A stretch of 64,000 nt of DNA from Polytrichum commune (lineage: Eukaryota > Streptophyta > Polytrichopsida > Polytrichales > Polytrichaceae), in assembly GCA_950295325.1 (NCBI GenBank), contig OX485806.1:31868001-31932000 (forward strand), read 5' to 3'. The notes under the pieces were generated by a model that made no database searches, was not told where the DNA came from, and saw only the letters and a list, made by a program, of their open reading frames with translations. Below, in pieces: positions 44,111-64,000 of this stretch; position 1 is the stretch's first letter, and each line of letters begins with the position of its first letter. The position numbers were made by a program, and so were the translations under genes.

Positions 44111-45346
44111 TGTTTCATAATTTGTTGATTTTGGTATCATTGGTGCGTTGAGCTCGCGTCTGTGTGTCTCACTATTGAATTTCTGCATACAGATCCAAGA
44201 CCCTGAATACACAGGAAGAAACAACCATCTCCATCGCTAGCCGTTACCACACCACGGACTTTGGGTGGTGGGTCTTTTGAAATTACTGGCTGTGCTTCGG
44301 AATCTCTGCGCTTGGTGTTGAAAGATGATGGTTCGTGGGGATGCGGACTTGGTAGAATTTGGAGGGCGATCTCAGTACACACATATCTGCCTGCATACAT
44401 AGGTATGCGCAACTCCTTCCAATTTATAGGCTACATGATTGTCTCTCCAGTTCAGTTTGTTCAGATCCTCACGCACGCTAGTAGTATGATTTGGCGACTT
44501 AGTTGTGAAGTGCAGACTTGAGTTTTAGAAAGGCGTGCAAGTGCGTTAAGGTATGTGGATGTTGTGTGGTTCCTCTTTCATGTTCTCAAACTTCTACTGA
44601 TTAGATACACGGCAAAATTTGCATTAGATTAGCAATTCTACAATGAAACATCTATAAAAATTGGACCTCCATTGATTTTAGTTACGGTTATCAGAAGTGC
44701 ATGTTTGTTGATTTCTTCATTGGATACATATGTACTCCCGATTGTGTTTACTATTGAGTGTAGAATAATATGAACCGAGGAGGGTTTGACATCCAGTTGG
44801 CTGGAGTCCCAAATAAAATTTCTACTCATTTTGTGCTTCTGGCCACTGGTAGCTCGCGGCAGGTTGAAATTTGCTCTCTTGAAAATTGCTATGTATTTGT
44901 AATTTGCATTTTCATGCAGTATTGTAATCACTTCATCATAGGTCATTTGCATCTCGTTGTCACAGTGTTGTGGAGGCAGTTTGTAATATTGTGGGCCCAA
45001 CAAAGTCGAAACTATCATGAATAACATACTTAATCTTTTAGCGTCTTTTGACTCTTCATTCTCTGATCTCAACATTTTTATAGATTGGACACAAGATCTA
45101 GTATGAACGCCATAACCAGTGTTGGTCTAGTATATAGGTGACTGCATGGTATTGATAACTAACACCCACAATGTTCGCGAAGAACCTACCTGTGTGTTAG
45201 GCACAGTCTGATACCAGTCAGTTATTCATATTTCAAAGGATATGTCAAGGCGAAAGAATTTTTACATGGGGATATTAACTAAAATGAGCCAATTGGGCCA
45301 TTATGAGACAATTCGTACCGATGGGAACGTGCATTGGGAACGTGGT
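44111..45346. other. Intergenic, no supported gene
   Basis: A minus-strand open frame at 44638-45075 (145 codons) was examined; its composition is plausible but no family is recognised. Otherwise nothing. Confidence 0.35.
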
Positions 45347-45716
45347 TCACGAGTAAATACCCGTGAATTGCCATCATTGACAAGGTTTAGAACAAGAGGA
45401 AGGTCATCAACATAGACTAGGGCACTATTTCATGCACATTGGTGTATATATATAAGCTAAAATAATGCTTATTCTAGCCCACATAAAAACTTAGCCCAGT
45501 TGTCACCACGGGTGTTCACTCGTGACCAACCAACACCCCGCAATAGATGAGCCTAGTATATCCATAATACAACATAAGTCGACACCACTAAGGAACAACC
45601 ATGCGCATGTCAACAACTGTATGCAAATATAATGGGTCTAATCATAAAAGCTATCATGGGCACTTAATACTACTCAGAGAATACAAATACATCTAACCAC
45701 GAGTGAACGCCCGTGA
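45347..45716. repeat. Three degenerate palindrome copies
   Basis: 45347-45366, 45505-45526 and 45697-45716 are imperfect versions of the 22-bp palindrome common at 45.9-54.0 kb, with one to four changed bases. They mark the left edge of the island. Confidence 0.7.
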
Positions 45717-45878
45717 CCAATCAACGCCATGCAACACACGATGCAAGATCCATAACACATGAAGGAAGGTCTACATGTCATATCCGACTACACAAATGAG
45801 GGTCAAAAAATCATTTGATTGAATCATAGATGCCACAGTGGGCCCAAAAAATGTGAACAAAGTATATGAATTGTTGTA

Positions 45879-45900
45879 TCCACGGGTGAACACCCGTGGA
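45879..45900. repeat. 22-bp palindrome near a stop codon
   Basis: Perfectly self-complementary, arms TCCACGGGTG and CACCCGTGGA around AA. It lies 24 bp downstream of the stop of the coiled-coil gene. Confidence 0.9.
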
Positions 45901-45924
45901 AAATCTATCACCATAAAGGTCCGG

Positions 45925-46509
45925 CTATCTACAAGAGGAGTATGAATCCTTAATCATTTTCAACATCTTGTCATGAGGTTGTCTTTGAGCTATAGTACAT
46001 TGCTTGCGCTTGACTTCTTCAAGCCGTTTTTTCTCCTCCATCAAAACTGTAGCTTCTCGAAGTTGTTTCACCCTTGCAGCCACGTAATTAGACATGGATG
46101 AGGTGGTATTGGGTGAACTACACCTCCAACATCCAGAACTATTTCCCGAGCCCGTGGGCTCACTGGGGTGAGTGGTTTGGAGAGAAAGGTGTCTCTTCAC
46201 CCGAGCGCGTGTGACCGGACCCACAACATCGACCGGAACAGCCTCCTCAACCGCGACCGGAACAGCCACCGCAACCGCGAGTGCAACATCGTGTGTTTGG
46301 AGCATATGTGTCTACCACAAGAAACGACAAATTGATATTAGAATCCCTGGGATGAAACACAACTAAAAAAATTGGGATTCAGGTGGAAAATGAATTACCT
46401 TAGGGCATGGAGATGTCACTTCGGCGAAGTCGGCGTTAGCATCCGGAGGACGTTGTCGACATGGTGGACTGGCAATATAGTTCTTAGGTCGCGTTTGGAA
46501 TGGGGAATG
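45925..46509 (-). CDS. Coiled-coil protein, 3' exons only
   Basis: Two exons join in phase 0: 46399-46509 (37 codons, acceptor CCTAACAG, donor AAG then GTAATTC) and 45925-46311 (acceptor GTGGTAG, stop TAG). The product begins HSPFQTRPKNYIAS, passes a low-complexity stretch of Ala, Val, Pro and Glu (VAVAVPVAVEEAVPVDVV), a basic RARVKR, and ends in a charged helix (AARVKQLREATVLMEEKKRL) likely to form a coiled coil. No family is recognised. The 5' exons were not found. It lies in the palindrome island, on the same strand as the large gene upstream, whose own stop at 46994 separates them. Confidence 0.5.
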
Positions 46510-46993
46510 CTGTTAGGATACAATAACATAAGAGTCCATGGAAGAAGGACATTATGTGCAAGAGGAGCCCGTCCGTTGCCCTTTAGTAAAGATGAACATG
46601 TTCAAAACATATGAATTATAGCCGACTAAGTCCTACATATTAAAATTCGCTATGACAACCATAATTCCCAAAAACACAACTAACATTGTCCAAGTGGCCT
46701 GATACATTCATTGAATCAACTACCACATTGCCACGGGTGAACACCCGTGGGACAATGCCAGACATTCACTGTGGTCGGAAATAGTCGGGTATTCTCTAAC
46801 ACCGCAGTGTTGCAAAGTAGTAGACTCCCAGTGAGATACATTCATGACCATGACATGTTTGCATGAAGAAAATCCACAAAACCAAAACAAGTTTCAAATG
46901 AAGTTGAAAGGCAACAAAGTTTCAGATCCACTCATTTCAAATACAATGTACCGATAGTGCAAATGTGCACTATAGGCGGCCCCAATAGGGAAT
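46510..46993. other. Spacer between the two island genes
   Basis: Holds the palindrome at 46730-46751 (CCACGGGTGAACACCCGTGG core). It may contain 5' exons of the coiled-coil gene or the 3' UTR of the large gene. Confidence 0.4.
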
Positions 46994-49900
46994 CTACATT
47001 AACATCTGAGCCTCTGGAACCATACGGGCAGAAGTCAGTATTTTATGTCTAACTAATGATTGCTTATAAATCAGAGAACTTGGCAGCTCTAGATTGAAGG
47101 GTCCCTGTCCTGATGGATAAGGGTTGCTCCCCACAAAATCTGGCACATACTGTTGAGAACTCAAGAGCCTTTGCAGGTAACTATGCAGAGTATCCAAGCT
47201 TTGGTTTGACATAAATGGTACAGGGTTAATGTAGCTCCCAGGAGGGTTTGGGATGCATTTGTAAGGGGAGTCATCAACAAGTAATGTAGTCCTATGACTG
47301 GGTTGCTTCGTATGTGGCACTGGATGCGTCCGGCTCCACTCAAAAAATGCGCACAGGTCTTTCATGAAGAAGCTTGAATCAACATTCATAGGACTAGGAA
47401 GAACTTGTCCTCTCTCATCCTTCAGAGTGTGACACAATTCTTGCCCAAACACATACTCTGGATGTCTACAACCATTGAAGAAGTGCCGGACAATTGGCTG
47501 AAGATTCTTCATAAGCTTCGACGACCAGATGACAACATTGAAGTTTGAGAGAACAAAACGCAGAAAGCGTCCCAGTCCTCTCCTAGGTATGAGGGCACTA
47601 TATGGGAGAAAGAGTGGAGCCAACTCCCCAGTTATCTGAGGGCTATGTTGTGATTCAAGAGTCTTCCTGGTGTTGACATTGTCGCACTTTGTTGACCTCA
47701 CCAGGATCTCGTTCACATCCAGCACTAACCATATCTTCTCTCTCCGATGGACAACAGTGGTTGGAGAGGTGAGGATCTGGCGATGACAAAATTGAAAGTC
47801 ATTGTAAAGGATTTCTATCTAAGGAAAAAGTATATTCTACATGATTTTTATCGAATGAAACAACACGTTGGGTACACATGAGTATGCAAGATAAAAGAAT
47901 GCCTCCACATTTATGGATTAGTTTTGCGAGATCGAGGAAAATATCGTACCGAAGGTGGTATTCCGGCAGTGGCTGTATGACCTGTGACCACATGCACACA
48001 TGACTTATGAGATCCACACGCTCAAACCCATAATCTCCCACGGGTGAACACCCGTGGGCACAATATCAAAAGTCCCTTATATAAATATTACTCGAGAGAT
48101 AACAATTTGTATGGAAATTGAAAAGTATAAACAGGTGGTCCCACGGGTGTTCACCCGTGGGACCAATTGCATTCAAATAACACTATATATGATACCTTGA
48201 GCTTGGCTTAGGGGGGGATCCCCACCATGTGCAGGGTCGTCATGAGAACTCGGTGGAATGACATCCCGTTCTGCCGCAACCAACACCTGTTGCAAAGACA
48301 CTTTTAGAAATCTTGACGAGTTTGCTTCCACCGCCAAACACAATATAGCATTGGAAAGGGAGTATGTATTACCATTTCGGACGATGCCGGTTGACCCTCA
48401 GCAACATGTTCGACATGAGGGCTTGAGGACTCCGCAACTGCAACATCGACTTCCCTCCTTGGAGACTCTGGCACTCCAGTAATGTCAATGATCTCCAACG
48501 TAGAGTCCACAACACTGCCGGCTTGAGCGGCCGATGATCCCGCGAATTGACCTCGTTCATCACGATGTTTGGGAGCTTCGAACGTTGTCCATCTCTTTCT
48601 CATTTTCTTTAATGCAGCGGCATGAAGAATATGTTTCACCTTCACTGCTTCACAAAACGCTGGTGTGGAGAGATAAACGAACATCTTGTGATAGTCGTAC
48701 GATTTGTACAAATGCGCAAGATTCAATCGCACGTTCTCGGGCACATCTACCAAGTATTTGTCCACAAATGGGGCAAAATGCACCTTGTCCTTCCCATCCG
48801 ATTCCTTGCCCATGTCAGGTCTCCCAGCAAACACCGGGTGAGGGTCATCAACAAAGTTGAGTTTCACTCTGTTGTACCCAGACTTCCCATAATCCTCATC
48901 CTCGGAATCATCCGTCATGTAGTCAGCAAACGTCCCCCGAACCCGATGTGGAACTCGATCTCTCACCTTCACCCTCACGTCTAGTTCTACGCATTTTTCG
49001 GGCACATCGTCATCACTATCCAAGCATATGAATTCGGTTCGAATAACCTCCTCTGCTTCATTGGATGGTGCCGCTACAGTAGGCTCTTCTGCAACCACAA
49101 CACCAGGTGAATCACGATTTGATCGCCCATGTCCTAGCACCTCGAGAACGGCAGCGGCAACGTCCTCAACAGGTGAGCTGACGTTCAAATCTGTGTTTGT
49201 CCCTTCAACATGCACAGCTTCAGACATGATTGCATCCCGCGGAACATCCTCCACATCTGCTTGGCCAGATTCAACATCGCGATAAAGACCAGAATGCTCT
49301 GTTGCCTCCGAAGACCGCGAGTGATCTCCAACTCTAGCAGGACGTAGAGATGACCTTCCCCTTCGAGGAGCTTTCATTTTCTTTCTTGCAGTCGGTTTCG
49401 ATGCAGACCTTGCAGCATGATTAGCTGACTGCGGACGCTCATCCTCCTCATATTCTTCCATAGGTTGAACATCTAGTTGTTCTTGACTTCGTCTAGATGT
49501 GTCAAACTGTGCAAACCCGCGGCCGGGTGTAGATGGGATCCCAGACGAGAAAGATCCCACAGGGTGATGGACACTGTGCTCGGCTTGTGGACGACCAACT
49601 TCCTCTAAGTTGGAAGCATCCTCTTGCCGCTCCTCCTCACCCTCCCCCTCCCCCACGGGTGAACACCCGTGGGGAACCTGCTCCGGGGACATGGCCTCCA
49701 AAGAGGCCTCCGCCATGGCTGACGCCTTGTAATTGAAGGCCTCCTCCTCCACCTCTGCCATGACCTCAGCCATGGCCTCCGCCAGTGCGTCGTCCATGAC
49801 CACCTCTTCCTCTTCGTCGGCCACTTCCTCTTCCTCCGCAGACTCCCCTAGGACAAGAACTAGGTCATCTTCCTCCTCCACCTCTTCCTCCTCCTCCTCC

Positions 49901-52900
49901 TCCTCCTCTTCTACGTCCTCTTCATTTGTGTCATTCGCACGCTTTCTTCCAATCTCGCGCTCAATGATGGAATCCACATCGATACGCCCTTCTTCCTCTT
50001 CCAAATCCTGGGCAGCGAATTTTCCTTCCTCATTCCACCTTTGTATGCTCCAGTCAACTGCGGCAATCATCTTCGTCTTCGCCACCTCTAGCATCTCTGC
50101 CGGCACAATATTCAACACCTTCATACCCAATGCCTGTAAAAACCAAGGCATGAGATAAATAACTTCTCAATCAAATTAGTCTACATCCAAAAGCGAATAG
50201 AATTAAACCAATAGTCCCAACTATTTGTCAACCAACTAATTGTCAGGAAAGCTATCGAGAAGGTGGCTATCAACCAGGTGGATATAAAGTAGGTGGATGT
50301 CTAGGCCCACGGGTGTTCACCCGTGGGCCTCCCAACCTGGTTTATGGTTAGGTTATCCAAAACACCATCCAAACCAACGATAATATTCAGAAATTCAAGA
50401 ACCACTTAGGGGAAAGATGCTCATTACTTACATGTGCCACTATGTGCGCCTTATTGCCTCCACAAATATTGAGAAAAGAAGACCCCTCAAGACATGAAGG
50501 CTTGATGATATCTATGTAGGTCTGCATCCTCAACTCCCCCTTGAATAAACACTTAGCCTCCTCATTGGAATACGCCCTTTTCACTGAATAACGTTTATAT
50601 CGCCCCGGATCATGGACGTCCAACATCTTCCGGCCTCCACAGAGCCGCACAACCACCTCCGAACTTGATTCGCCCCTATTGGGAAAAATGCAGTTTGTAA
50701 CCCGAAGAGCATTTGATTCGAAGAAGCAATCGCGAGATGCAATTTTCTCCTCTTTAGTGCCATGGTATAAGGCGTCACAAAATCTGGCGTTACTCGGAAG
50801 GTGCGCCTTCAGCACATTGTGAATGAAATGCCGATCCGGATATTCTGAAATTACAGTCCACAATTGGGGGAGTTTAAAATGTCTGGGAAATCACGACGAA
50901 GACCTTGCAGAGTGGAATCCATACACTCCTTCACACGCCCCCCAGTGTCTTTTCCCGCCTGGACTCCGGGGAGAAACCTTGTGTCCATGTACGCGTGCAG
51001 GACTGGTGCAAGCACTGTCCCACCACTGATCTTGTAGTTGTTGTCAATAGACAACACGACATGCTCGGGTGTAACCTCGGTATTATGTGTACCTAAAATG
51101 TTCCTCACTCCTTCTTTAAACCGGTCCGGAATAGGTACTCTCTTCCTTGTGGGGTTCATAGCGCCAAGAAGGTACTCCGCTCCAAGCAAGTCTACAAGTC
51201 GTTCTCGCTGGAGTTTACCAAATTTATTCGCATATTTCCATACTCTCCAACAATCACGATCAATGGTCTCTTTCTGATCGACGTGAACAATGTACAATGG
51301 AGTCGGGTCTAGACACTGTGCCATCGCGATATAAGTTTCATTCTTTTTTTTCCTGTTCATCGCCCAATCGCGCACAGTCTTCAAGGTATGTCGAGGGTGC
51401 TCCTCTCCATCTCTGGTGGTGAGGATTTGATTCGCTGCCATGTCGAGCTCCATCTCTATCAAGCCCCGAAATTGTTTCAGATCGTTCTTGACCACCTTCT
51501 TCGACTTAAACCCCTTTGTCTCTTTCATAAGAGCTCCGGTCTTCGGGTCTACATAGTCACCACTCTCGTAATCCTTGAATATCCGCTCCCACTTCCTCCA
51601 TATGTCATCGCTCAATACAGGCAAGACGTGCTCCATGATCAGGTTGGTCTCCTTCTCCACGCGGAACGTCCACATGACGCACGTAATAAATGCCTGTATC
51701 AAACACCGGCAATGTATCAATCTCTATGAAAAAAACCTCCATGTATTTCTAGCAATCACCAACAACATGATAGTCGCCCACGGGTGAACACCCGTGGGAG
51801 TCACAGAAATGAGAAATTCAAAAGTCACAGGTTTGAAAAATACCTTCCACTTCTTAAAAGCTTCCGTGTTGCTGGCCTTCTCGCGTACAGTTCGGTCAGG
51901 TCTTCCTCGCCTAATCCAGGTCTTCCTAGCGTGTTGAATGCACTCCGTAAATGACGGAAAGTGTTTCCTGTACTCACTATCCAGGTTCAGAACACCAGAG
52001 AGGTGGAACAGAGGGTCGTCATCACCTTTAGGGGCCCAGACCACATTACAAGGCCATTTCGAGAAAAACCTCTTCACCTCATCTGTGCTGCTAGGGTCAT
52101 TCACATACTCCAAACAAGCTGCTAACGTGTGCTGTCCATTTACCACGTGGAACGATTTGTCCTTCACCTCCTCAAAATTGAATGGTTTAGTTCGCCTATC
52201 CGAAGGAACGATTGTCAAGAAGTTGGGATGAATCTTCGGAATGAAGGTATAGTTGAATAACCATGTCTTGATCTCCTTCAAATGCGCCTCGGATATGGGT
52301 CGGCAATTATACCCTGCATCTCCCCGCTCTATATTGTCAATATTGACATAGCCATTCACGCCTTCACCGAATATCCACACCCTTTGGTACTTGTTCTTGA
52401 ACAACTCCATATCCATCAACCTGTCTCCAACCGATTTGTCTGGAGGCCCATGCATTGATCGCTTGGGAATCTTCTCGAATTCAAGAAATGGACTATCCTC
52501 GGGTGTTTTCTTCTTGCCTCTCTTGGAGACAACATCCTGGCCGTCAGTGTCTTCGACAATCAGTGGTTGTCCTTCATCGGGTCTCGTCTTCTTCCTAGAC
52601 GAGGTGGCACGTACATCAGCAAGATCCTTCCTCTTGCCATCGCGGATTTCCTTCTTCTTCAAAGATGCTTCCAACCTTGCCGCCTTTGCCTCCTCAACTA
52701 TAACCTTCACTCGTGCTAGAGCAGACTTGTAGTCCTGCTCGATCATTACTGACCTCTCCTCCACGGACTTCGTGTGCACATTGGTCTCGCAATATAGTAT
52801 ACAATAGGTGAGGAAATCACCGTTCAATAAGCGGATGTTCTCTCCCTCATTGTTGAGCTCTTCATTCACATCCGCATATGAGAAAGTCTCCACGAGTGCT

Positions 52901-53278
52901 GCAACCTTGAAGTCCTTCTTCCGTTCAGGAGACTTGCACATTATCAATACCCGGCTCCCATCCGCTTGAATGTCCAGTACATGTTTTGCCTTCATGTACT
53001 TTCTCCATGTGGAATTGGGCCCAGTCCTCGTGTAAAGCGAGAGCACCGTTGTCTCTCCGAAACCACTATACTGCATGAACCATTGCAAATCTGGGCCCAA
53101 AACTTCAACATCGTAATTCACCCGTCTGCCCACACCTCCCGATACTGCAGAAGACAATGCACATGTTAGTACTCAGCATAGCCCAATATTATCACGGATT
53201 CTATAATTCATATAACATTGACGTGCACATAGGTATTGTGGTTATACCTTTACGGGTTGTTTGCTTAGTTCTTGCCAT
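46994..53278 (-). CDS. Large protein: H3-tail-like N-terminus, ParB-like and FCP1-like domains; one frameshift
   Basis: Seven exons join with matching phases: 53248-53278, 51844-53144, 50432-51693, 48373-50133, 48196-48286, 47950-47981 and 46994-47776, about 1,753 aa. Exon 1 encodes only MARTKQTTRK plus one base, close to the H3 tail (MARTKQTARK); its ATG has context GAGATGG with a TGA two codons upstream. Exon 2 holds Lys-rich coiled coil (about 145-195), basic nuclear-signal-like KRGKKK, and a ParB-like stretch (about 292-356, CRPISEAHLKEI then VVNGQHTLAA). Near residue 851, FLNICGGNKAHIVAHALGM resembles methyltransferase motif I without a visible DPPY partner. Exon 4 is acidic (about 940-985). 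The last exon is FCP1/NLI-like: LDVNEIL (Asp1513, Asn1515), VVIWSSKLMKN and LLVDDSPYKC. Exon 3 needs one added base in a C-run at about 50866-50870. The single-gene model is inferred; two genes remain possible. Confidence 0.65.
48037..48058. repeat. 22-bp palindrome in intron 5
   Basis: Arms CCCACGGGTG and CACCCGTGGG around AA, perfect. It lies in the intron between the 91-bp and 32-bp exons of the large gene. Confidence 0.95.
48140..48161. repeat. 22-bp palindrome in intron 5, TT centre
   Basis: Perfect copy with a TT centre, in the same intron as the copy at 48037 and in the opposite orientation. Confidence 0.95.
49652..49673. repeat. 22-bp palindrome inside a coding exon
   Basis: Perfect copy, read in frame by the large gene as PHGCSPVG (about residues 1018-1026) within Glu-rich low-complexity sequence. 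The exon stays open through it. Confidence 0.95.
50306..50327. repeat. 22-bp palindrome in intron 3
   Basis: Perfect copy with a TT centre in the intron 50134-50431. Confidence 0.95.
51777..51798. repeat. 22-bp palindrome in intron 2
   Basis: Perfect copy with an AA centre in the 150-bp intron 51694-51843. Confidence 0.95.
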
Positions 53279-53442
53279 CTCAATTCAAATGAGAGAACAC
53301 TTCGACACCTCTATGTACCTGAATGAAACACCAACTGTCTATCACATGTTTATGTCTAAAACCTTCAAATGCTTACAGAGACACACCAAATTTGTCTACA
53401 TAGAAAATCAAAAAGACATTTATCAAACAAAATCTCCCACCC

Positions 53443-53609
53443 AGGTGAGTGCAAAGGCTCACGGGTGAACACCCGTGGGCACTCCTAACCAGGTGAGGGC
53501 AAAGGCCCACGGGTGAACACCCGTGGGCACTCCTAACCAGGTGAGTGCAAAGGCCCACGGGTGAACACCCGTGGGCACTCCTAACCAGATGAGGGGAGAG
53601 GCCCACGGG
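53443..53609. repeat. 48-bp tandem array carrying the palindrome
   Basis: Three full units and a broken fourth. Palindromes start at 53458 (first bases changed), 53506 and 53554; a half-site lies at 53602. The period is exactly 48 bp. The linker reads CACTCCTAACCAGGTGAGTG and then CAAAGG. It starts about 165 bp upstream of the large gene's ATG. Confidence 0.95.
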
Positions 53610-53822
53610 AGGGCTGATTTTTCACAAAGTTTAAGCTCGTCCACGTCGAAAAACATTGAATTGAAAGGCGAAAAAATCTCAACCCGTCCCGAAACCGGTA
53701 ATATCTATACAAGTTAAGTCTCCCTCAAGTTGGTACAAAATTAGGAAAAAAGAACAGAAAAAAACGAAGATGTCGACATATGACCACGGACATGTTAGGG
53801 ACCTTGTGAAGAATCACCACTG

Positions 53823-53986
53823 CCCACGGGTGTTCACCCGTGGGACTCTCCACCTGGTGAGTGCAAAGGCCCACGGGTGTTCACCCGTGGGCCTCTCCAC
53901 CTTGTGGGTGCAAAAGCCCACGGGTGAACACCCGTGGGCACATTCAACCGGATGGGGGGAGAGGCCCACGGGTGTTCACCCGTGGG
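53823..53986. repeat. 47/48-bp tandem array carrying the palindrome
   Basis: Four perfect palindromes start at 53823, 53870, 53917 and 53965 (spacing 47, 47, 48). Three have TT centres and one AA. The linker resembles that of the array at 53.45 kb but is more variable. Confidence 0.95.
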
Positions 53987-54412
53987 CACTTCAAATATCC
54001 ACTTTCAGATAACCGCGTTCACACTAACAGAAAAACTGGGATTTATGTAATGGACACTCACCAGGGTTCTTTGGGGGGACCATGTCAAAATTCTTTCAAT
54101 ACGAATGTGGTTTCCTGCACAAAACAAAACACAAGAGCATTTGTTTCAAACTATGCCTACATGTGCAATACATTCATACTCTCAAACATCTCAATAGGTA
54201 AATTCTGCCCTCACATTCTTCTTGCATTCTGGTCTCACATTTTTATGAACATAACCTCTTGTCATTCATCTTGCATTCTGATTTGAGCATTTTTCTCACA
54301 TTTCAATCAACTCTTCACACCCAAGCATCACACAACTCACATGCAAATCTCTAGTATTTCTGGGTTTGAAATTCTTCAAGCAATTCAAACCCTAGTGCAC
54401 CAGAAATTTGAA
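53987..54412. other. Upstream flank of the island, no gene seen
   Basis: AT-rich sequence with no further palindromes. It marks the right edge of the palindrome island. Confidence 0.45.
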
Positions 54413-54539
54413 ATGCAAGCAAGAGGAAGAATGCAAGCAAGAGGAAGAATGCAAGCAAGAGGAAGAATGCAAGCAAGAGGAAGAATGCATGCAAGAGGAA
54501 GAATGCATGCAAGTGGAAGAATGCAAGCAAGAGGAACAA
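54413..54539. repeat. 18-bp minisatellite, 7 units
   Basis: Units of ATGCAAGCAAGAGGAAGA start at 54413, 54431, 54449, 54467, 54485, 54503 and 54521, with a few substitutions. The repeat is open in all reading directions and so produces spurious ORFs. Confidence 0.95.
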
Positions 54540-55149
54540 TGAAATTGAAAGAGAAAGCAAAAGAGTGAAAGAGAGTGCAAAACATTGAAAGACTTCAGAA
54601 ACTTACAAGCTTGTGGGTTCTCAATTCTTCATGATTGGAACTTCCCTCCACTTGCTTCAAGGTCGTCTTCCTCTTCTCCACATCTCACCTCTACCACATG
54701 CTGGATTGAGCAAGAAACAACTATGCTCACGAAGAAACTATCACATATTCCAAGAAAATGCACACTGAATCTATTCCAGAGTTTTCTTGAGAAGAGAATC
54801 AAGACAAGGAGTACAATAATTGAATGAAGAGAAGAGAATGAAGAGAATGAAGAGAAGCAAAGCAAGTTCAGAATTGTGGGAGAAGAGTTTTGCAAGAGCA
54901 TTCCAGAAAAATGGAGAGTGGTGAAGGAAAGAGAGAAAGAATTGGGAGAGGAAAATGAGAGAGAGGGAGAGAGAGGGTGCGAAATGTTGCCATAATGACG
55001 AGCGGGTGGAAGTCGCATGACACATAATGCCTCATTAGTACGAAGGGACATGATGGAGGAAATCTCGGGACGCGAAGAGATATGCGATTTGGCGGCTAAA
55101 GTACGTTTTGAGGAGGGATGGGCGGTATGATGGTATTAGGACGTAGCGA
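54540..55149. other. Purine-rich intergenic sequence
   Basis: 54820-54980 is rich in GAGA and GAAGAGAATG motifs. No gene is supported. Confidence 0.4.
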
Positions 55150-55680
55150 TAAAAAATTATTGGTACTTTGTAAGGTTCGCCCTATTGGTATGATAATTAT
55201 TAGTACTTAGTAAGATATCTAAGTATTAGTGAGATAATTATTAGTACTTAGTAAGATATCTAAGTATTAGTAAGACAATTATTAGTAATTAGTAAGATAA
55301 CTGCGTATTAGTAAGATAATTATCAGTACTTAGTAAGATAACTCATATTAGTAAGTTCATTATTAGTACTTATTAAGATAACTCATATTAGTATGATTGA
55401 TATTATTTTTATTGTTAGTAAATTGTCATATTCACTCTATTGTTAATATTAGTAATATTAGTAAAAATGATTTATAGTAATTAATAGTAATTACCAGTAA
55501 TAGTAACTAATAGTAACTAATAGTGACTAGTAGTGAATAATAGTGAATGCTAGTGCTTCATAGGTCATTATAGTCATTAATAATGTTTAATAGTCATTAA
55601 TAATTATGAATTACTAATGGCTGACTAGTAGTGATTTATAGTAATAATAATAATCACTTTCAATCGATAAATGGTAATAG
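55150..55680. repeat. Degenerate AT-rich tandem repeats (TAGTA-type)
   Basis: 55160-55400 is built from units like TTATTAGTACTTAGTAAGAT with drift. 55440-55680 continues with TAATAGTAA- and TAGTGA-type short repeats. Non-coding. Confidence 0.8.
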
Positions 55681-57033
55681 TATTGATAATGCTTAAAATA
55701 GGTTCATATTATAACATAGATTCCTATTATAACATACCAAAGTCAATTGCACATTCTCATAATATGCGTGTAAGATGCTCAATCGCGCTTGACATCAAGC
55801 ATAGCTATGATTTCCAATTCCTTATTGATGAAGTCGTGAGCATCCATAATAGGCCCACTTTCACCATAGCCCATGAACTCAAGTTCGATTGTTCTCTTGT
55901 TTTCTCTTGGACTATGAACCATTAGAGTTCCAAGAATTCAAAATTTTAAATATAACATATATTATGGCAACGAAAATAATGGCATGACATAAGAAGCGGC
56001 CATGGATACTTATAAAGCATCAAAGTTGCTGGCCATTAGAAATCATCACACATAATACTTGCCGCGCATAATGGGTACATGCCCACCTCCTATATCCAAT
56101 AAACCCTACTGGATAGGTAAATACTACTAGGAATGAACATAAATCGTTTAACATAAAAAAAAAAATTAGGCAATTTTAGCATAAATCTCTTTGTGGCTTT
56201 GCCCTCACCCCCATGCATTGAGAATCACTTCATAACTTGGTTTTAAAGTCATTCTCCTAGCGTTTATTCTTGTAATTGTATCTTAAGTTATATTATTACT
56301 AGATTCATTATGTGCTCTTCATTGGCTAAGATTTTTGACGTTCATAGTCAACATCTAATATGAACACACATGCTTGCGATAACACAAATTCAAGAATGAC
56401 CTTCTCAAAGGCACTAGAGTTATCATTTATCCCACTCAAATTTTTGGGTGGGGGTTGGTTGTTTTGCATGCAACACATATGGACTTAGCCAAAATTAGCG
56501 GTCAACTAAAGAGAAAGGACTTTGGAAACTAACATATTGAAGTACAAGGTGATATGCAAGGCCGCGGGAGACATCGGAATCGAAATCATATTGAGAGGAT
56601 GACAAAGGAGGTGGCCAACAAGTGGGCCACATCAAGCACCACATGAATCTCGAGCAATATTAAGATTGCATCTCCATAACCATACCTCATCGATTAAAGG
56701 GAATTCTAAATGATGGCATAAGATTTACGGAAATGAGAACTTGAATAGGAAATGGGTCAAACACTTCAATGAATGAATTCATGTAAATCATGTGTACTCT
56801 ATGAATTGAATGGTTTGTGGAATCTCGTAAAGATACTTTAGCGAGGAGTAGGTTAGGAATACATAAAGTCTTGAGACTCTTTCAAATTGAAATATTGAAA
56901 TATAATTGAATAGAGGAAGAATAATACGTAGGTCATTCAATCCATGAAAGAGATAAAAATAACTCCATAAGTTATTAGAGATGAGAATGATTTACATGCA
57001 TGAACACTTAGCTTGACATTAATGTCTTAGGGA
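55681..57033. other. Intergenic, no gene seen
   Basis: AT-rich with short unsupported frames only. Confidence 0.4.
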
Positions 57034-57270
57034 CTCGGGGGGGGGGGGGGCACTGGCGAAAAACGTAGGAACTACGTGCGATAAAATATAGGGTCTTGTA
57101 TAAAAATTTGGCGTAAAATTTGTAAAATTATTAGATGTAGTATAGGGTGCTTTGGGATTGTGAAACATGATTATATGTAATATAGCATTTGACAAAACAT
57201 GATTAAATTACCTAAGTGGTACATATAAAATAGCATGGACAAAAAGTGATAGTTTCAAAAATTAAATACT

Positions 57271-57567
57271 TTGCCACCAAAATATGGCATGTTCTATATA
57301 GGAAGGGTTCAAAAGATAAGGGTGAAGGTTGGTACTAAGTGGGGCAATTGTTGGCAACCCATTGACTTGATGAAACGTGTAGTCCAGAACGGAAATAGAG
57401 AGACGCTCTTCCCAACTACTATGGCTTACCTCCATTGGTTAAAAAAACAGTTGGGTCTCAACAAATACAAGTATGTTGAGAGTGATTGTGTGTGGGTTGA
57501 TGTGGATGCTATTCTCTCAACAGTGTCTCTAGTAACAATGAATCAACTAGCAAAATCTACACCTTAG
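57271..57567 (+). CDS. Protein-like ORF inside the G-run element
   Basis: A 98-codon frame with balanced composition: GTKWGNCWQPIDLMKRVVQN, then RETLFPTTMAYLHWLKKQLG, then VWVDVDAILSTVSLV. It looks like part of a real protein rather than random sequence, but I do not recognise it, and no ATG starts it in this frame (the first codon is TTG). It could be an element-encoded protein fragment or a captured host exon. Confidence 0.35.
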   Translation: MPPKYGMFYIGRVQKIRVKVGTKWGNCWQPIDLMKRVVQNGNRETLFPTTMAYLHWLKKQLGLNKYKYVESDCVWVDVDAILSTVSLVTMNQLAKSTP

Positions 57568-58030
57568 ATGAGGTAGATGCAAACTCATTGAGTGAGTTCA
57601 TTTCAAATAAAAAATAAAACCTGCTAAATTTGTACTATCTCACACATGTGGGGATATAATTTGGAGAAAGGGCTGAATGATCATTAGTATACCTTGAAAT
57701 CTGTAGTAGCCATTTCAGTTCGATTACCCTCATATCTCCCACATGTGTAAATGGTAGCCTAGCTAGTTTAGGTGGATTTTGCTTGCATGGCGTGGGATTT
57801 TCTACCAATGTGTAGGATTGGAAGATCAAGGCATCAATTGTAGGGCTTCTGCAAACCTTATAAATGTGACTTTGAGACACATGTGGTTGGCCTGTTCCCT
57901 AAGACCTCAAGGTTTTTAACTGTGTTATCCAACACAACTTTCATTCGTTGGCTCGTGTTGCTTAATGACATGTAATTGCAATCTTTTGTTGTTATTGTTT
58001 AGTGTTTTGCTTTGCCCGGACTTCAGTGTG

Positions 58031-58051
58031 ACCCTGAACCCTAAACCCTAG
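58031..58051. repeat. Telomere-like motif inside the G-run element
   Basis: ACCCTGAACCCTAAACCCTA, about three units with one changed base. Confidence 0.75.
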
Positions 58052-58539
58052 TAAATGTTTGTTTCTCTTACTTTGTACACGTGCTTCTAACGAGAATTCT
58101 ACTGTATCATACACTTTAAGGAATGGGGGCAATCAGGGGGGAAAAATTGCATATAAGTAATATAGGGTACCATAAAATCAACCATCCAAGAATTTATAAT
58201 TACCAATAGGGTGCAAATAATCACAACAATTTACCATTATTTCAAAAATTAGCATCCCTTATAATCCTTTCTCATAGGTAAATAGCCCCCATTTTAATAG
58301 GTCATTATCGCAGGTGTATGCAAAATATACAAGGGAATCCCCCCCCCCCCCGAGCTTAGGGAACATCAACTTGAATTCTAAAGGCACTGACTCACTTAAG
58401 AATTATTGGACAAGGATATCATATTGAGATTGGAAATTAGTAAACATATGATCACAGATCCTCAACATAGTTCACATGCCAACCCATACCCCATTGTATG
58501 CCAGACTATCTCTTCATATGTGAACGCTACATGAGGTAT

Positions 58540-58900
58540 AACTTAGAGCCATGTCATGATGATGGATGAGTTCATCCATTGACCTTCTCATGTTAGCAAC
58601 TTGTGATGCAACATTGTCATGGATGATTGCTATATTGTCTACTGTGATATAGTGATAACGTACATGTTCATATTAAACGGTTTTGTTAATTCCCACTACA
58701 TTCCCAAGGGTAAGATGCTTAAGCTCACTATTGGCAAGTGTCATGTGTTTTATTTTAATATTTAAGAGGAATACATCCTTAAGCATACTAATGGCATGTC
58801 ATGTCAAGATTTTAATAAGTGCACTCAAACACCCAGTGTCATGTGACGACACTTACGGTGTTGTTGTTAATCTGCAATATAACATAGCATACCCTTCAAA
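58540..58900. mobile_element. Truncated relative of the 4035-4957 TIR element
   Basis: Shares GTTAGCAACTTGTGATG-like sequence and TTGTCATGGATGATTG with 4280-4316, and further stretches around GGCAAGTGTCATGTG and CATACTAATG. The termini are missing. Confidence 0.6.
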
Positions 58901-58919
58901 ATAGGGGTTTCCATTACTG

Positions 58920-59500
58920 TGGGTTTTTCATCTGTATATTTGGATGAAAATCCAATGTAAGGCAAGGAAAGTACAATAATATTACAGTGGGCCACACTAA
59001 AAATGAACAACAGGACTTAGAATAATATAAGGTTTCAAAAATGGCAATGGACATCTTTAAAGTACTATAGGGTATGGAAGAATATGTAATTTGGAATTAT
59101 ATGAAATGCAAGGCTTTTTCTATTAACCCAAGGTTGAAAATGCTAATGAAATAAATAACCCTAAACCCTAAACCCATTAGTGTGGTAGTCCACTTAGTGT
59201 TGGACCTTACTAGTTGCTCGCCATCTATTTGTGTCCTACTCATATGCAATTAGGAGTCTAGTAACAACTAATTCTCTTTTATCGCGCATCCATGTGCAAA
59301 CAACCACTATTTTATATGGGGTTATTACTTTCAATTTTTTTCTTCACATGCTATGATTATGTAGTTTTCTTAGTCGGGTTAGTAGAAAAGGGCCTTGCAT
59401 TAATTACAAATCCAAATAATCGATTTGTTCCATACCCTATAGTACTTTAATGATGCCTAGTGTCATTTTTGACACCCCATATTATATTTGCTTTAACATG
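58920..59500. repeat. Inverted copies of the G-run element interior
   Basis: About 58990-59130 and 59380-59500 are inverted copies of one sequence (shared CATCTTTAAAGTACTATAGG and its complement). The same sequence is the interior of the element at 7232-7577. The left copy ends at the telomere-like repeat at 59158. Confidence 0.75.
59158..59175. repeat. Telomere-like repeat at an element end
   Basis: CCTAAACCCTAAACCC directly after GAAATAAATAA, the same junction as at 63.05 kb. Confidence 0.85.
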
Positions 59501-62500
59501 GGCGGACGTTAAATACCCCCTCACGAACTTTTGGAGGTATCTAATCTGGGTTGGGGCAATCTTGTAGAGAAAATTTCTAAACCCGACCAAAAATTGCATT
59601 CTTGAAGGCCGCTTGACTACAAATCCCATATTGAGTGCACTAAAATCCGCTTGACTTACCATAAATAACTTATATTTGTCATTCTAATGATAGATTAGTG
59701 CAAATGTTTATAAGAGAATAAGGTATAAATAAATGATATGTTATTTGGAATTAGACTCGTGGGACAACGTTATAGATGGGGTATATATTACTGAGAAAAT
59801 CATAAGTTTCTGACTATAGCCTATCTGAATTATTTAATAATTTATCCTCATCACATATTGTATTATCTTTCAAATCACATAGTGTATAACCGTTACTTTT
59901 AAATAAATATAATTATATGATACTAATACTAATATTAATACTAATACTAATACTATTATGCAAATACTAATAATAACAATACTAATACTAATATTGAATT
60001 GAGTTTTTTAGTTCACCAATTTATCATAAGGTGATATATATTATTGTGCCATATTACAAATGTTTGAACAATCACACATGTGCAAAATAAATGAATTATG
60101 AACAAAAAGATGTCTATGACAACACTTCATAATTATATATTGCACACATTGATATCTTACAATATTTATCAAAATAACCATGTGAAATTCAAAGCCACAT
60201 CATGGCCTTGGAAACATCTCATGGGAGGTTGGAAAATAGGCTTAGAGCATCCAAGGCCACATCATTGCCCCTTGCCAACAAATTAATATTTATAAAATAA
60301 CTATGATGGAGAAAGTAGGTCTTACATGCCAACTCGGAGGTATTTCACTAAAGTAAGCTCCATCCGAGCTTCTTGATGGACTCATCCGATTTTTGTTACC
60401 GGATGACTTTACTTGAGTGCCACGAATCCCCGGCCATTTCAAGTGGGCTTGTACGGTTAAGGTATTTGTTGACTTTCATATTTACCGCCTCGAATGTCCT
60501 TCCCAAAGTGCACATCTAAGGGTACTCATGTAAGTATAACCATGCTATCACATAGAGCCTTATTATAACCTAACATAGTCAATCGCACACTCTCAAAATA
60601 TTTTCGGTCATTGTAGGGTCGATAGTGCACATGGATTGACAACCTAAGTACCAAAGTACTAAATTTGAGCAACAACAAATCCCACATGGATGCAACATCT
60701 ATGGCTACACGGTCCAAAATTGAGCTTTTATATTCTCCTTAAAGGTGATTTCAAAAATACTTTATGGCAAGTCCACAAGTCATACCCATGGATTGGAGCA
60801 TGACATTATGGAAAGGTTACTTAAAGGTTACTCAAAGGTATTTGACCCCGATTTTAAAGAGTAGTTTAATAATCTCTAAATAGAAATCTCTAGTCCTATT
60901 GTTACCAATGCTTTCGACTTCCCCTCCCTTGGTCTCCCTCCCCTTAGTAGATGTTGTATTGAATCATCCCATGATACCTACCTATGGTGCAACAATTAGA
61001 GTTTATTGCATTGAGTACGACTGTTGTTTTGAGAGCTCACATGCTACATAACTAAATAAATTCATTTTTTTATTTTAGCAATTAGTTAAAAAAGACAATT
61101 AGTTAACAATTAGTTAACAAAGATAATAAATTCATTTTTTTATTTTTTTTCCCAAAGCGGGTCATGGGGGCTTATGAGTGGGGCTATGTGCGTACATGCA
61201 CATGAAGGTTTTACAGGGGCATGGGCATATGGTTTGCAAGGGTTAATGTATGTGGTTGGGTTCATGCAAGATATGAACCCAAAATGATTCATACGGACTG
61301 GTGTAATGGGTCAGGATGGCACATGCCCAAACTAATAAGGTATGTGGGGCTCATTGATAGTTGTAGTTTGAGGAGGGAAACTTGACTAGCTTGGTATTCT
61401 AGCACATGGAAATTGATTTTCATTTGAGCGGAGAAACCTTGGTTTTTATATACATTGTTAGTGTGAACCATAATTTGTTGTATTTACATTGAGAGTTCAT
61501 GATGCCATGTTCTTACTATTCAAACCTTGCCCAAAGTTTTCTTAATTTATGGAGATTTTGTTTTTCATTTTTCTAGCATCCCATGATTAAAAATCAATCA
61601 GTCTAGTCAATCAACAACTAAAGTGCGTCAGTACAAGGATGGCCACGTTTCAACTTGTGTTTTGGGCAACGAGCCGAATCTGCTACGGTACCCCCCCAAC
61701 CACCATTGCCACTCCACATGGAAGTGCTCAGTCCAAAAGATGCTTGAAGATACCGGCAAAACCTTCACCAAAACGATTGGTACATGAAAGTGTGCCCTAA
61801 CTTGGGCTAGACTAATTTGGGGTCAATTCAACTAAATAGGGTTTCCAATAAACTTTGAAAAATAACCTCCTTACTACATACTAGTTTAAAGTTTCATTGT
61901 TGGATGAATGAGAGTAATATGCTCATATGCGATAATCCCATTTCGTTGGCCAAAAAAACATTGATATGTATATAGGGCCTCACATTAGAAGCCCAAGCCC
62001 TTGAGGATGTAAATGCTATCACAAATTCCCCATGCGTAGGCAAAGCCTATCAATCCGAGGGCAAAGACAAGAAAACCTGCTCACATACAAGCACACCCAA
62101 CATTCATCCAAAAACATTTTATTTAAAAATTCAATTGGTTTGACACCGTAATTAGCTTCAAAGTTACGGAATTAGTCTAAACCAAGGGGGTTTAGTTTTA
62201 TATTTTCTGTCGGATCGATGAGAGGTACTCTTGAATGTGAGGTTTTTCTCCACATATGGAAGAGCACATCCTGAAAAGGGGAAGAAATTTTTATTAGGAA
62301 AAATTGAGTATGTTTGCTCTATAATGTACATGAGTTTGGGGGTGGTGGTGGGGGGGGGCTCATTATAGGGCTTATTGCCTTCCTTTTGGAAGCCGGGCTA
62401 TGTTGGGTGCAACTATCTATTTGGGGCATCCAAGTTTGGGAAGAGGGGGTTGACATTGCAACCATTGTATCTCATTGCATCTATTAAGGGGTTGTATGTG

Positions 62501-62817
62501 TTTGTTTTGTATTGTTGTTTCAATGTATGTGTTGTGGCATAAGGTTTAGGTTAAGGAGTATATGTCCTCTAGCTGCATTGGGAGTTCCAATCACACACGT
62601 GGTGTCCAAACTAAGTCTACCCAAACATGTGCATTATCCAAGGACATGTCAAATGATTGGAGTCGCGTTTTTCTACAGCCTTGTCGATCGGTCAGCCTTA
62701 AGCCATCATTTCGACATGGGATCTCAAAACGGTCATCCAAAGGGCATAAGTGGTGGGCCCATAAGTATATAGCGTAAAACCTAGGAAGTGCAGCTAGAAA
62801 TGTAGTGGACACATACC
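59501..62817. other. Intergenic, no supported gene
   Basis: 59920-59995 is an AT-rich array of ACTAAT-type trinucleotide repeats. A G-run lies at about 62350. No gene, RNA gene or TIR pair was recognised; the frames at 62512-62777 were checked and not accepted. Confidence 0.4.
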
Positions 62818-63079
62818 GGGGGGGGGGGGGTTGTGATGTATTGGAGTAGAAATATACGTGCGAAAAATTGAGAGGGTATATGGGGACGTAAAATGAACAA
62901 AATGATTTAGAATAATATAGGGTGTCAAAAATGGCGTTGGGCATCTTTAAAGTACTATAGGGTTTGAAATAATAGGTAACTTGGAAATATAAGTAATGCA
63001 AGGCCCTATCCTACTAACCCAGAGCTGAAAATGCTAAGGAAATAAATAACCTTAAACCCTAAACCCTAAACCCTAAACC
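62818..63079. mobile_element. G-run element copy ending in telomere-like repeats
   Basis: Starts with CGGG and a G-run, then follows the reverse complement of the 7232-7577 element (GGAGTAG.AATATACGTGCG, then GTACTATAGGGT). It leaves that alignment after GAAATAAATAA and ends in about three to four CCCTAAA units. The other G-run end is absent. No target duplication was found. Confidence 0.7.
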
Positions 63080-63171
63080 GGTTTATAAATGGATCAACAT
63101 CTCTAGCGTAGTGCTATAAATTTGATGATTTCCCCAGTGTAAATAGGGCATTGACGCCCGAGTTGGCCACA

Positions 63172-63173
63172 TA

Positions 63174-63204
<31 letters not shown>

Positions 63205-63250
63205 ATATACATACATACATACATACATATAGACACACACACACATATTT
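63172..63250. repeat. Compound microsatellite (AT, CATA, CA)
   Basis: An AT run, then GTATAT and CATA units, then ACACAC. Confidence 0.95.
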
Positions 63251-63688
63251 GTGGCAAAGGAACTCTATGGTATGTTGCTACATGTCCAACATCATGATTG
63301 ATAAGAATGACAAGTGATGCTAAAAGATGAAAAATGGGTTGTGCAAATCAAACAGGTGCCATGAAAATGGACTCTCTCTCCCTCTCTCTCTCTCTTTGGT
63401 GGCATTTTGCATGTTTCAGTCAATACATGCAAATTCATTTTGTAACATGTGGCGCTTTCAAGTCAAAGATGGATTAACCCTAGGCTTGAGCTATTGGGAG
63501 AAGGGTCGAATTGTCAAATTGTGTATAATGTCATAGTAGGAGTCTAGGTAGGTATTGAGTCATCACATCCTATATCATACTATTAATGGGGGTGGGCGAG
63601 GCAAGGTTGTGGCAAGTTGACAAGGCTGGGCATGGTCACGAATCATTGGTGCTAAATTTGAGGTCACATGAGAAAGTTATTAAATGGG
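63251..63688. other. Intergenic, no gene seen
   Basis: A short CT-rich stretch lies at 63371-63397. Otherwise nothing recognisable. Confidence 0.4.
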
Positions 63689-63875
63689 CATCTTGGATAA
63701 CTTAACTTGATAAAACCACCACAAGCCATTGTGAACCGTTGATGATGAGGTTGAGGTTGTTTGGGAAGAGTGTTCAACAATCATCTTGGATAACTTAACT
63801 TGAAAAAACTGCCGTGAACCATCGGGGTTTAGGTTGAGTTTGAGGTTAAGGTTGAGATTGTTTGGGAAAGGTGGT
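63689..63875. repeat. 93-bp tandem duplication
   Basis: Units at 63689 and 63782 share CATCTTGGATAACTTAACTT, then GTGAACC and GAGGTTGTTTGGGAA-like sequence. A third partial unit starts near 63938. Confidence 0.75.
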
Positions 63876-64000
63876 CCACTTAACTTCATAATTATAAATT
63901 CAAGGTTTTATGTTTTGATGTAATAATTCTCAATGGTCATCTTCGATAACTTAAGTACATGATTGTGACCTTAGGGTTTTGATGTTTAATGTTTCAAAGT

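Follow-up and report, generated by a model that had tools for sequence, protein, structure and literature searches.

The window that we analysed, a stretch of 64,000 nucleotides from Polytrichum commune, contains on its minus strand a gene with a short coding exon, here called exon B, that specifies a near copy of the histone H3 tail. A sequence-only reading of this DNA had placed the exon, and its coordinates, codons, splice donor and splice acceptor were borne out when we re-read the minus strand over 53278-53248. Exon B consists of ATGGCAAGAACTAAGCAAACAACCCGTAAAG, which encodes MARTKQTTRK plus 1 nt; at the junction it is followed in the window copy by gtataa...ttctgcag and then by TATCGGGAGG, with exon 2 running from 53144, and splicing the two exons in silico gives MARTKQTTRKVSGGVGRR. 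The match to the H3 tail at nine of ten residues, also proposed earlier, was confirmed, the one difference in the window copy being a Thr for Ala7, numbered as in H3 without its Met. After these ten residues the protein continues V-S/P-G-G where H3 has S-T-G-G: H3 Ser10 is replaced by Val, and the G-G that opens exon 2 matches H3 G12-G13.

That the downstream protein is not a histone had been claimed as well, and this stands: the PF00125 histone fold was not matched in the downstream frames scanned, and a predicted ParB-like core is found instead. Histone H3/H3.3 and the encoded protein thus have the first ten residues and G12-G13 in common, with the histone fold absent downstream. An FCP1-like domain, the other domain named in the earlier reading, fared less well. 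A PF03031 match does lie 4 kb downstream (Table 1), but where the DxDx catalytic motif of FCP1/SCP phosphatases is expected the frame has DVNEI, in which the second aspartate is missing; judged against that motif, the phosphatase-like domain at 46997-47818 is probably inactive or substrate-trapping. Pfam gave no match for the acidic region of probable exon 5 or for the minor frames.

About 0.8 kb upstream of exon B we observed a second candidate first coding exon, exon A, of 22 nt, which ends in G directly before the gt donor and has the same phase as exon B. It could be joined to exon 2 to give a tail-less isoform, and the gene may thus produce two forms, tailed and tail-less, which is the chief caveat to the view that the protein bears the tail. 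Pattern searches recovered exon A as MVPPKNP, MVPPKKP, MAPPKNP and MTPPRKP; a fifth form, MSRPKKT (copy L094), was missed by the pattern and found by eye, which brings the exon to all five of the subfamilies read.

Table 1. Positions of the transposon, its H3-tailed gene and its palindromes in window coordinates.
Feature	Position	Strand	Remarks
Transposon, part inside the window	45266..64000	-	Strand is that of the H3-tailed gene; continues to window-equivalent 70299 (C4:31938299)
Terminal inverted repeat (TIR) ATGGGGATATTAACTAAAATGAG	45266..45288	+	Target-site duplication ttac at 45262-45265
FCP1/NIF (NLI interacting factor-like phosphatase) open frame	46997..47818	-	PF03031, E=8e-12; same gene or separate
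Probable exon 5, acidic, Glu-rich	48307..50133	-	Open frame; 3' end tentative
Probable exon 4	50432..50844	-	Open frame and splice signals, by reading
Exon 3, after the ParB-like core	50904..51693	-	Open frame and splice signals, by reading; end tentative
Exon 2: VSGG..., basic linker, ParB/sulfiredoxin-fold core	51844..53144	-	Core 51844-52440, predicted
Phase-1 intron, 103 nt, gtataa...ttctgcag	53145..53247	-	Copies read retain gt..ag and the frame, at 97-108 nt
Exon B, coding part: MARTKQTTRK + 1 nt, H3-tail mimic	53248..53278	-	53318-53248 with leader, by reading
Alternative first coding exon A, ATGGTCCCCCCAAAGAACCCTG followed by gt, MVPPKNP, phase 1	54062..54083	-	54114-54062 with leader, by reading
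Seven palindromes CCACGGGTGnnCACCCGTGG between exons A and B	53459..53985	.	Two clusters, spacing 47-48 bp within each; starts 53459, 53507, 53555, 53824, 53871, 53918, 53966
Nine further palindromes	45506..51797	.	Starts 45506, 45697, 45880, 46731, 48038, 48141, 49653, 50307, 51778
H3-like tail sequence preceding exon 2: MARTKQTARKVSGG			
H3-like tail peptide, Ala7 and Thr7 forms: ARTKQTARKVSGG			

Similarity between the window copy and another copy of the same sequence stops at 45266, where ATGGGGATATTAACTAAAATGAG begins. This sequence is one of a pair of terminal inverted repeats (C4:31913266 and C4:31938299) flanked by the target-site duplication ttac/ttac, and the whole window-copy element spans C4:31913266-31938299, or 25,034 bp, its far end lying beyond the window. 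The repeat occurs 97 times in the genome at up to 2 mismatches (control, 0), and the 4-bp target-site duplication was perfect at all ten TIR pairs that we selected from these matches. Close to the far end, the opposite strand carries an open frame of 692 aa containing PF25273 DUF7869 (E 2.4e-46), which we read in the copy at C5:45513543-45538642 and which matches the window copy at C4:31934811-31936886. We regard this frame as transposase-like, DUF7869 being a domain of unknown function. Many copies of the exon 2 protein and of the DUF7869 frame are 98-100% identical to one another, and the family has therefore been active recently. On sequence criteria, the coding exon for the tail belongs to a DNA transposon of ~25.0 kb, a point that the sequence-only reading had missed, as it had exon A, the palindromes described below and the commonest form of the peptide in the family; a host gene was rejected on account of the copy number, the inverted repeats and the target-site duplications. 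A related transposase family, with a frame of 1031 aa that is 40-52% identical to the DUF7869 frame, is found at C6:36391997-36394159 and C5:52457920-52460079.

The genome that we searched was the window's own alone (407.8 Mb, 64 contigs). The degenerate pattern M-A-R-T-K-Q-T-[ASPT]-R-K has 70 matches there and the reversed control none; of these, 17 fall on histone H3 genes and the other 53 are exons of the element type, assigned by pairing with exon 2 copies and by reading, so that every match belongs either to an H3 gene or to the H3-tail element. A chance match was rejected on these numbers and on the silent-site pattern described below. A pattern search in viral contigs returned 44 matches, with no relative of the element among them. 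Searching the genome with exon 2 listed at least 100 matches, from which we used the 58 that reach the N-terminal part, leaving out 17 fragments from the interior or C-terminus and 25 distant matches (23-27% identical). MARTKQT[A/T/S]RK lies 97-174 bp upstream of exon 2 in 51 of these 58 copies, as MARTKQTARK in 37 (10/10 identical to H3), MARTKQTTRK in 13 and MARTKQTSRK in one; the commonest form of the peptide in the family is the one identical to the H3 tail at all ten positions. The seven other copies comprise one with the tail exon 2.3 kb upstream, three with one or two substitutions (MARTKQIARK once, MAKTKQTTRK twice), one with a broken frame and two for which we did not find a tail exon. 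Conversely, one element-type tail exon, at C6:42679128, is unpaired with the exon 2 matches listed; alignment of this locus with the window breaks off inside the intron.

The arrangement of exon B and exon 2 is well preserved. A phase-1 gt...ag intron is kept in all 20 copies that were chosen across the subfamilies and read, and V-x-G-G starts at the resolved junction in 23 of 24 copies, where the script chose the acceptor giving G-G and the tblastn boundaries, by reading, agree. An in-frame stop lies within six codons ahead of the ATG in 28 of 29 rows read, a set in which the window copy was entered twice (as the window and as L009); in the sole exception, L013, the stops lie further up. Given these stops just before the ATG, the peptide would be the true N-terminus of the protein when exon B is used; its use in transcripts is presumed.

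Comparison of far subfamilies shows introns that are 46-55% identical and exon B DNA that is 84-94% identical, with a peptide that is unchanged save for one Ala/Thr site, the Thr variant occurring in one of six. Among five subfamilies, all five variable sites of exon B are third codon positions (counted with the family codon GCC instead of the ACC of the window copy), as are 7 of the 9 variable sites among nine subfamily sequences. Fitch counts on a tree of 24 copies, which omits L048-L051 (decayed or with the exon missing) and includes L056 with its exon 2 start set by hand, give 12 silent and 9 replacement changes against a neutral expectation of 74-78% replacement (P 0.0005-0.0025), a test based on 30 bases in related copies. 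Of the nine replacement changes, six swap Ala and Thr at H3 position 7; the remainder, R2K twice and T6I once, fall on tips of the tree. With so variable an intron, an unchanged peptide and variation mostly at third positions, the pattern of substitution indicates that the likeness to the H3 tail is under purifying selection. Mean pairwise identity over the ten tail residues is 0.97, whereas stretches of that length across the protein average 0.76, and the tail ranks 14th among 391; it is among the best kept stretches of the protein and not the sole one.

The sequence-only reading had called the downstream protein ParB-like. The Pfam ParB models do not bear this out, since at E up to 1 none of them matched exon 2 in any of 11 members, and a sequence profile search of the PDB with exon 2 gave no match either. 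An AF2 model of all of exon 2 reached a pLDDT of 41, and Foldseek returned nothing below E 0.4 with it. The label finds its support in the fold of a second model of middling confidence, that of the C-terminal core of exon 2 built from 12 sequences of this genome (pLDDT 67, pTM 0.69). The 13 best Foldseek rows for this model are all ParB, Noc or ParB-like PadC (best E 3.9e-4, TM 0.39-0.40), although only three rows reach E 0.001 or better and the TM-scores are low (0.38-0.42). VIA-align gives Z-scores of 9.8 for Noc (96 residues, rmsd 2.4), 9.6 for ParB and 8.6 for KorB, and lower ones, 5.6-6.6, for sulfiredoxins. We therefore predict that the exon 2 core folds like bacterial ParB/Noc. The canonical nucleotide box of ParB is GERR; it is absent from the element protein, which has NGQHT instead, and the alignments show NGQH[ST] at that place (NGQD in one member).

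Homologues without the H3-like start had been named as evidence against the mimic. We found them only outside the family, at nine distant loci (L041-L046 and L098-L100, 24-27% identical; L097 is an additional stretch upstream of L045), where a MARTKQTARK-like peptide with up to 4 changes is absent from the ~3-6 kb read at each. At four of six such loci the distant relatives have their start near M[DE]REVLW, and the other two are similar. A DNA search of the six for H3-tail-like stretches (up to 7 changes) gave two matches, both at chance level: one, in L042, contains a stop, and the other is KAPRKPPATK in a basic linker of L046 (minus strand, around base 2259 of the reverse complement). This last peptide resembles H3 residues 14-23, KAPRKQLATK, and L041, the sister of L046, has GPRKPPATK; the likeness is probably chance in a basic, Pro-rich linker.

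The element also carries a repeated palindrome, CCACGGGTGnnCACCCGTGG. At up to 3 mismatches there are 16 sites in the window, 13 of them perfect, all within the element and none in window positions 1-45265; perfect sites number 819 genome-wide (control, 0). An array lies between exons A and B in each of the five subfamilies read, and in copy L047 sites stand directly upstream of the transposase-like frame. The site at 49653-49672 falls within the acidic open frame, where it is translated PHGCSPVGEG. In the subfamilies of 71-74% identity the T-type motif CACGGGTG..CACCCGTG is changed symmetrically to the C-type CACGGGCG..CGCCCGTG. Within the upstream 500 bp of 20 copies, 11 have the T-type, eight, from the subfamilies of 71-74%, carry ACGGGCGnnCGCCCGT, changed on both sides, and a single copy (67%) shows neither type; longer stretches, from two copies per type, agree, with 2 of 13 L094 sites fitting both types within one mismatch. 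The palindromes fit a DNA-binding protein that acts in trans, for which the ParB-like protein is the simplest candidate. Repeats of other palindromes, 2 to 15 sites at up to 1 mismatch, lie upstream of the ORF at all nine distant ParB-like loci (CCACTCG..CGAGTGG, TCACTCG..CGAGTGA, CTCTCG..CGAGAG), which are perhaps a set of related palindrome-protein pairs; their spacings in L041-L046 and L098-L100 are often about 65, 73-75 and 100 bp.

A second repeat family, L104-L108, carries CACGGGTG..CACCCGTG as well, once or twice 70 bp apart (C1:28021650, C1:47965100, C1:2256400, C1:29501750, C1:46838450). These are five fetched of the six places off the clusters among the first 50 of the 819 sites. Members are 95-99.6% identical to one another over pieces of at least 150 bp and resemble the H3-tail element in the palindrome stretches only (up to 33 bp); the family is possibly a parasite of, or a target for, the same putative binding protein.

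From these observations, we hypothesize that the tailed ParB-like protein is a regulator that binds its own element, displays H3-like tails there and counteracts silencing in the manner of VANC, a reading to which we assign a probability of roughly 45%. The protein would bind the palindrome arrays, found within the introns of its gene and ahead of the transposase gene, rather as ParB/KorB bind their palindromic sites, DNA binding being suggested by the predicted fold and the arrays. Removal of the initial Met would expose Ala1, and the array-bound protein would then present many tails that begin with the first nine residues of mature H3 (ARTKQTARK); many H3K4 readers need the tail at the very N-terminus. 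The displayed tails would engage, in cis, host proteins that read, write or erase marks on H3 K4/K9, and this engagement would keep the genes of the element out of silencing, giving a VANC-like platform with sequence specificity. Whether activators would be recruited at the tails or silencing enzymes diverted, either is possible from the sequence; modification or reading of the tail, and the anti-silencing outcome, are what we would expect of such a display.

We prefer anti-silencing because the layout is VANC-like. VANDALs are Mutator-like elements. According to excerpts of two papers (PMC5735166, PMC10398659), the VANC proteins of Arabidopsis VANDAL elements bind noncoding parts of specific copies, which leads to loss of silent marks; their targets are tandem repeats of a motif whose type depends on the subfamily, with arrays both within VANC and VANB introns and upstream of VANA. 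VANA is, in the excerpted text of one of them (PMC5735166), better conserved than VANC. As far as these excerpts describe VANDAL, the present element agrees in having a companion of the transposase, arrays of motifs in the introns of the companion and upstream of the transposase, a motif that differs by subfamily and a companion that diverges faster than the transposase: in the same elements the DUF7869 frame is 86-88% identical and the ParB-like protein 71-74%. It is unlike VANDAL in its DUF7869, its 4-bp target-site duplication, its palindromic sites, its predicted ParB/sulfiredoxin-like core and its H3-tail N-terminus, and Pfam found no match to the VANC domains DUF1985/DUF287 in the element frames scanned. 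With bacterial ParB/Noc/KorB it has in common the predicted core fold and repeated palindromic sites on the encoding element; it differs from them in belonging to a eukaryotic transposon, in the addition of a histone-like tail and in a DNA-binding role that is putative.

More tentatively, the protein may form on the palindromes a binding or spreading complex like ParB-parS that acts as artificial chromatin, offering perfect H3 tails without nucleosomes and thereby recruiting or decoying the H3K4/H3K9 machinery in cis, with the choice of first exon around the array serving as a switch for the tail; we lean somewhat against so specific a scheme. Histone mimics are known in viruses and in a few host proteins, such as influenza NS1 and G9a. 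Like these, the element protein is a non-histone with a short stretch resembling H3; unlike them, for they are short and internal or C-terminal, its mimic covers ten residues at the exact N-terminus of a putative sequence-specific DNA binder encoded by a multicopy transposon. We found no transposon-encoded H3-tail mimic in the open-licence PMC literature (for part of it, among the best matches only), nor in that literature on DUF7869. The element seems to join histone mimicry with sequence-specific anti-silencing. If this is right, a transposon counters silencing by mimicking what the silencing machinery acts on, nature has provided an H3-tail fusion aimed at a defined DNA palindrome, possibly of use as an epigenome tool, and one could test which readers of the H3 tail determine what becomes of a transposon.

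Alternatively, the tail may be a targeting device that docks the protein, together with the transposition complex, on H3-tail readers and so steers integration or tethers the element. The conserved tail fits this as well, recent activity is evident from near-identical copies and from the perfect duplications at the ten chosen pairs, and chromatin features guide other integrating elements, as an excerpt of PMC4176367 reports. The transposase-like frame lacks the tail, however, and palindromes in introns and upstream of genes look more like regulation than like recognition of ends; we consider targeting unlikely.

Equally doubtful, in our view, is that exon A is the main first exon and exon B minor, regulated or part of a leader, most of the protein then being tail-less and the tailed form rare or due to a switch of promoter or splicing that the array between the two exons controls. 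In favour are the conservation of a 22-nt phase-1 exon A, with the array between it and exon B, in every subfamily read (one by eye), and the finding, by reading, that splicing exon A to exon B meets a stop at once in the window copy. Yet exon B is the better conserved of the two, with variable sites among five subfamilies at codon positions 1, 2 and 3 numbering 0, 0 and 5 as against 2, 3 and 5 in exon A, and exon B would therefore be used often enough for selection to act on it.

It is improbable that the peptide is kept for another reason, for instance as a basic N-terminal signal for localisation or stability, and resembles H3 incidentally. It is short and basic and its position 7 varies between Ala and Thr, as such a signal might; but a localisation signal would tolerate many sequences, whereas here ten of ten residues are identical at the exact N-terminus and are followed by G-G at the place of H3 G12-G13, and all 70 pattern matches in the genome are H3 genes or the element.

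A functionless passenger fragment recently captured from a host H3 gene can be dismissed as very improbable: transposons do capture pieces of host genes (excerpt of PMC13317346), but the tail is common to the subfamilies and under apparent purifying selection, the seven element forms are 6-8 of 30 bases from the nearest of the ten host H3 forms, the silent-site pattern contradicts recent capture, and neither of the two intron-bearing host H3 genes read has an intron at codon 10. The base differences between element and host H3 are, by reading, silent save for the Ala/Thr codon. In those two host genes, L037 and L038, the first coding intron comes after codon 24 or later, compared with codon 10 in the element, and we rejected plain duplication of an intron-bounded H3.3 first exon since their first coding exon extends beyond codon 10; the end of the host H3.3 (L038) is what we take to be a plant-type sequence. 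An old capture with later silent drift and convergence both fit the origin of the tail. Three H3 genes lie at C4:31676541-31684925, ~230 kb from the element copy in the window.
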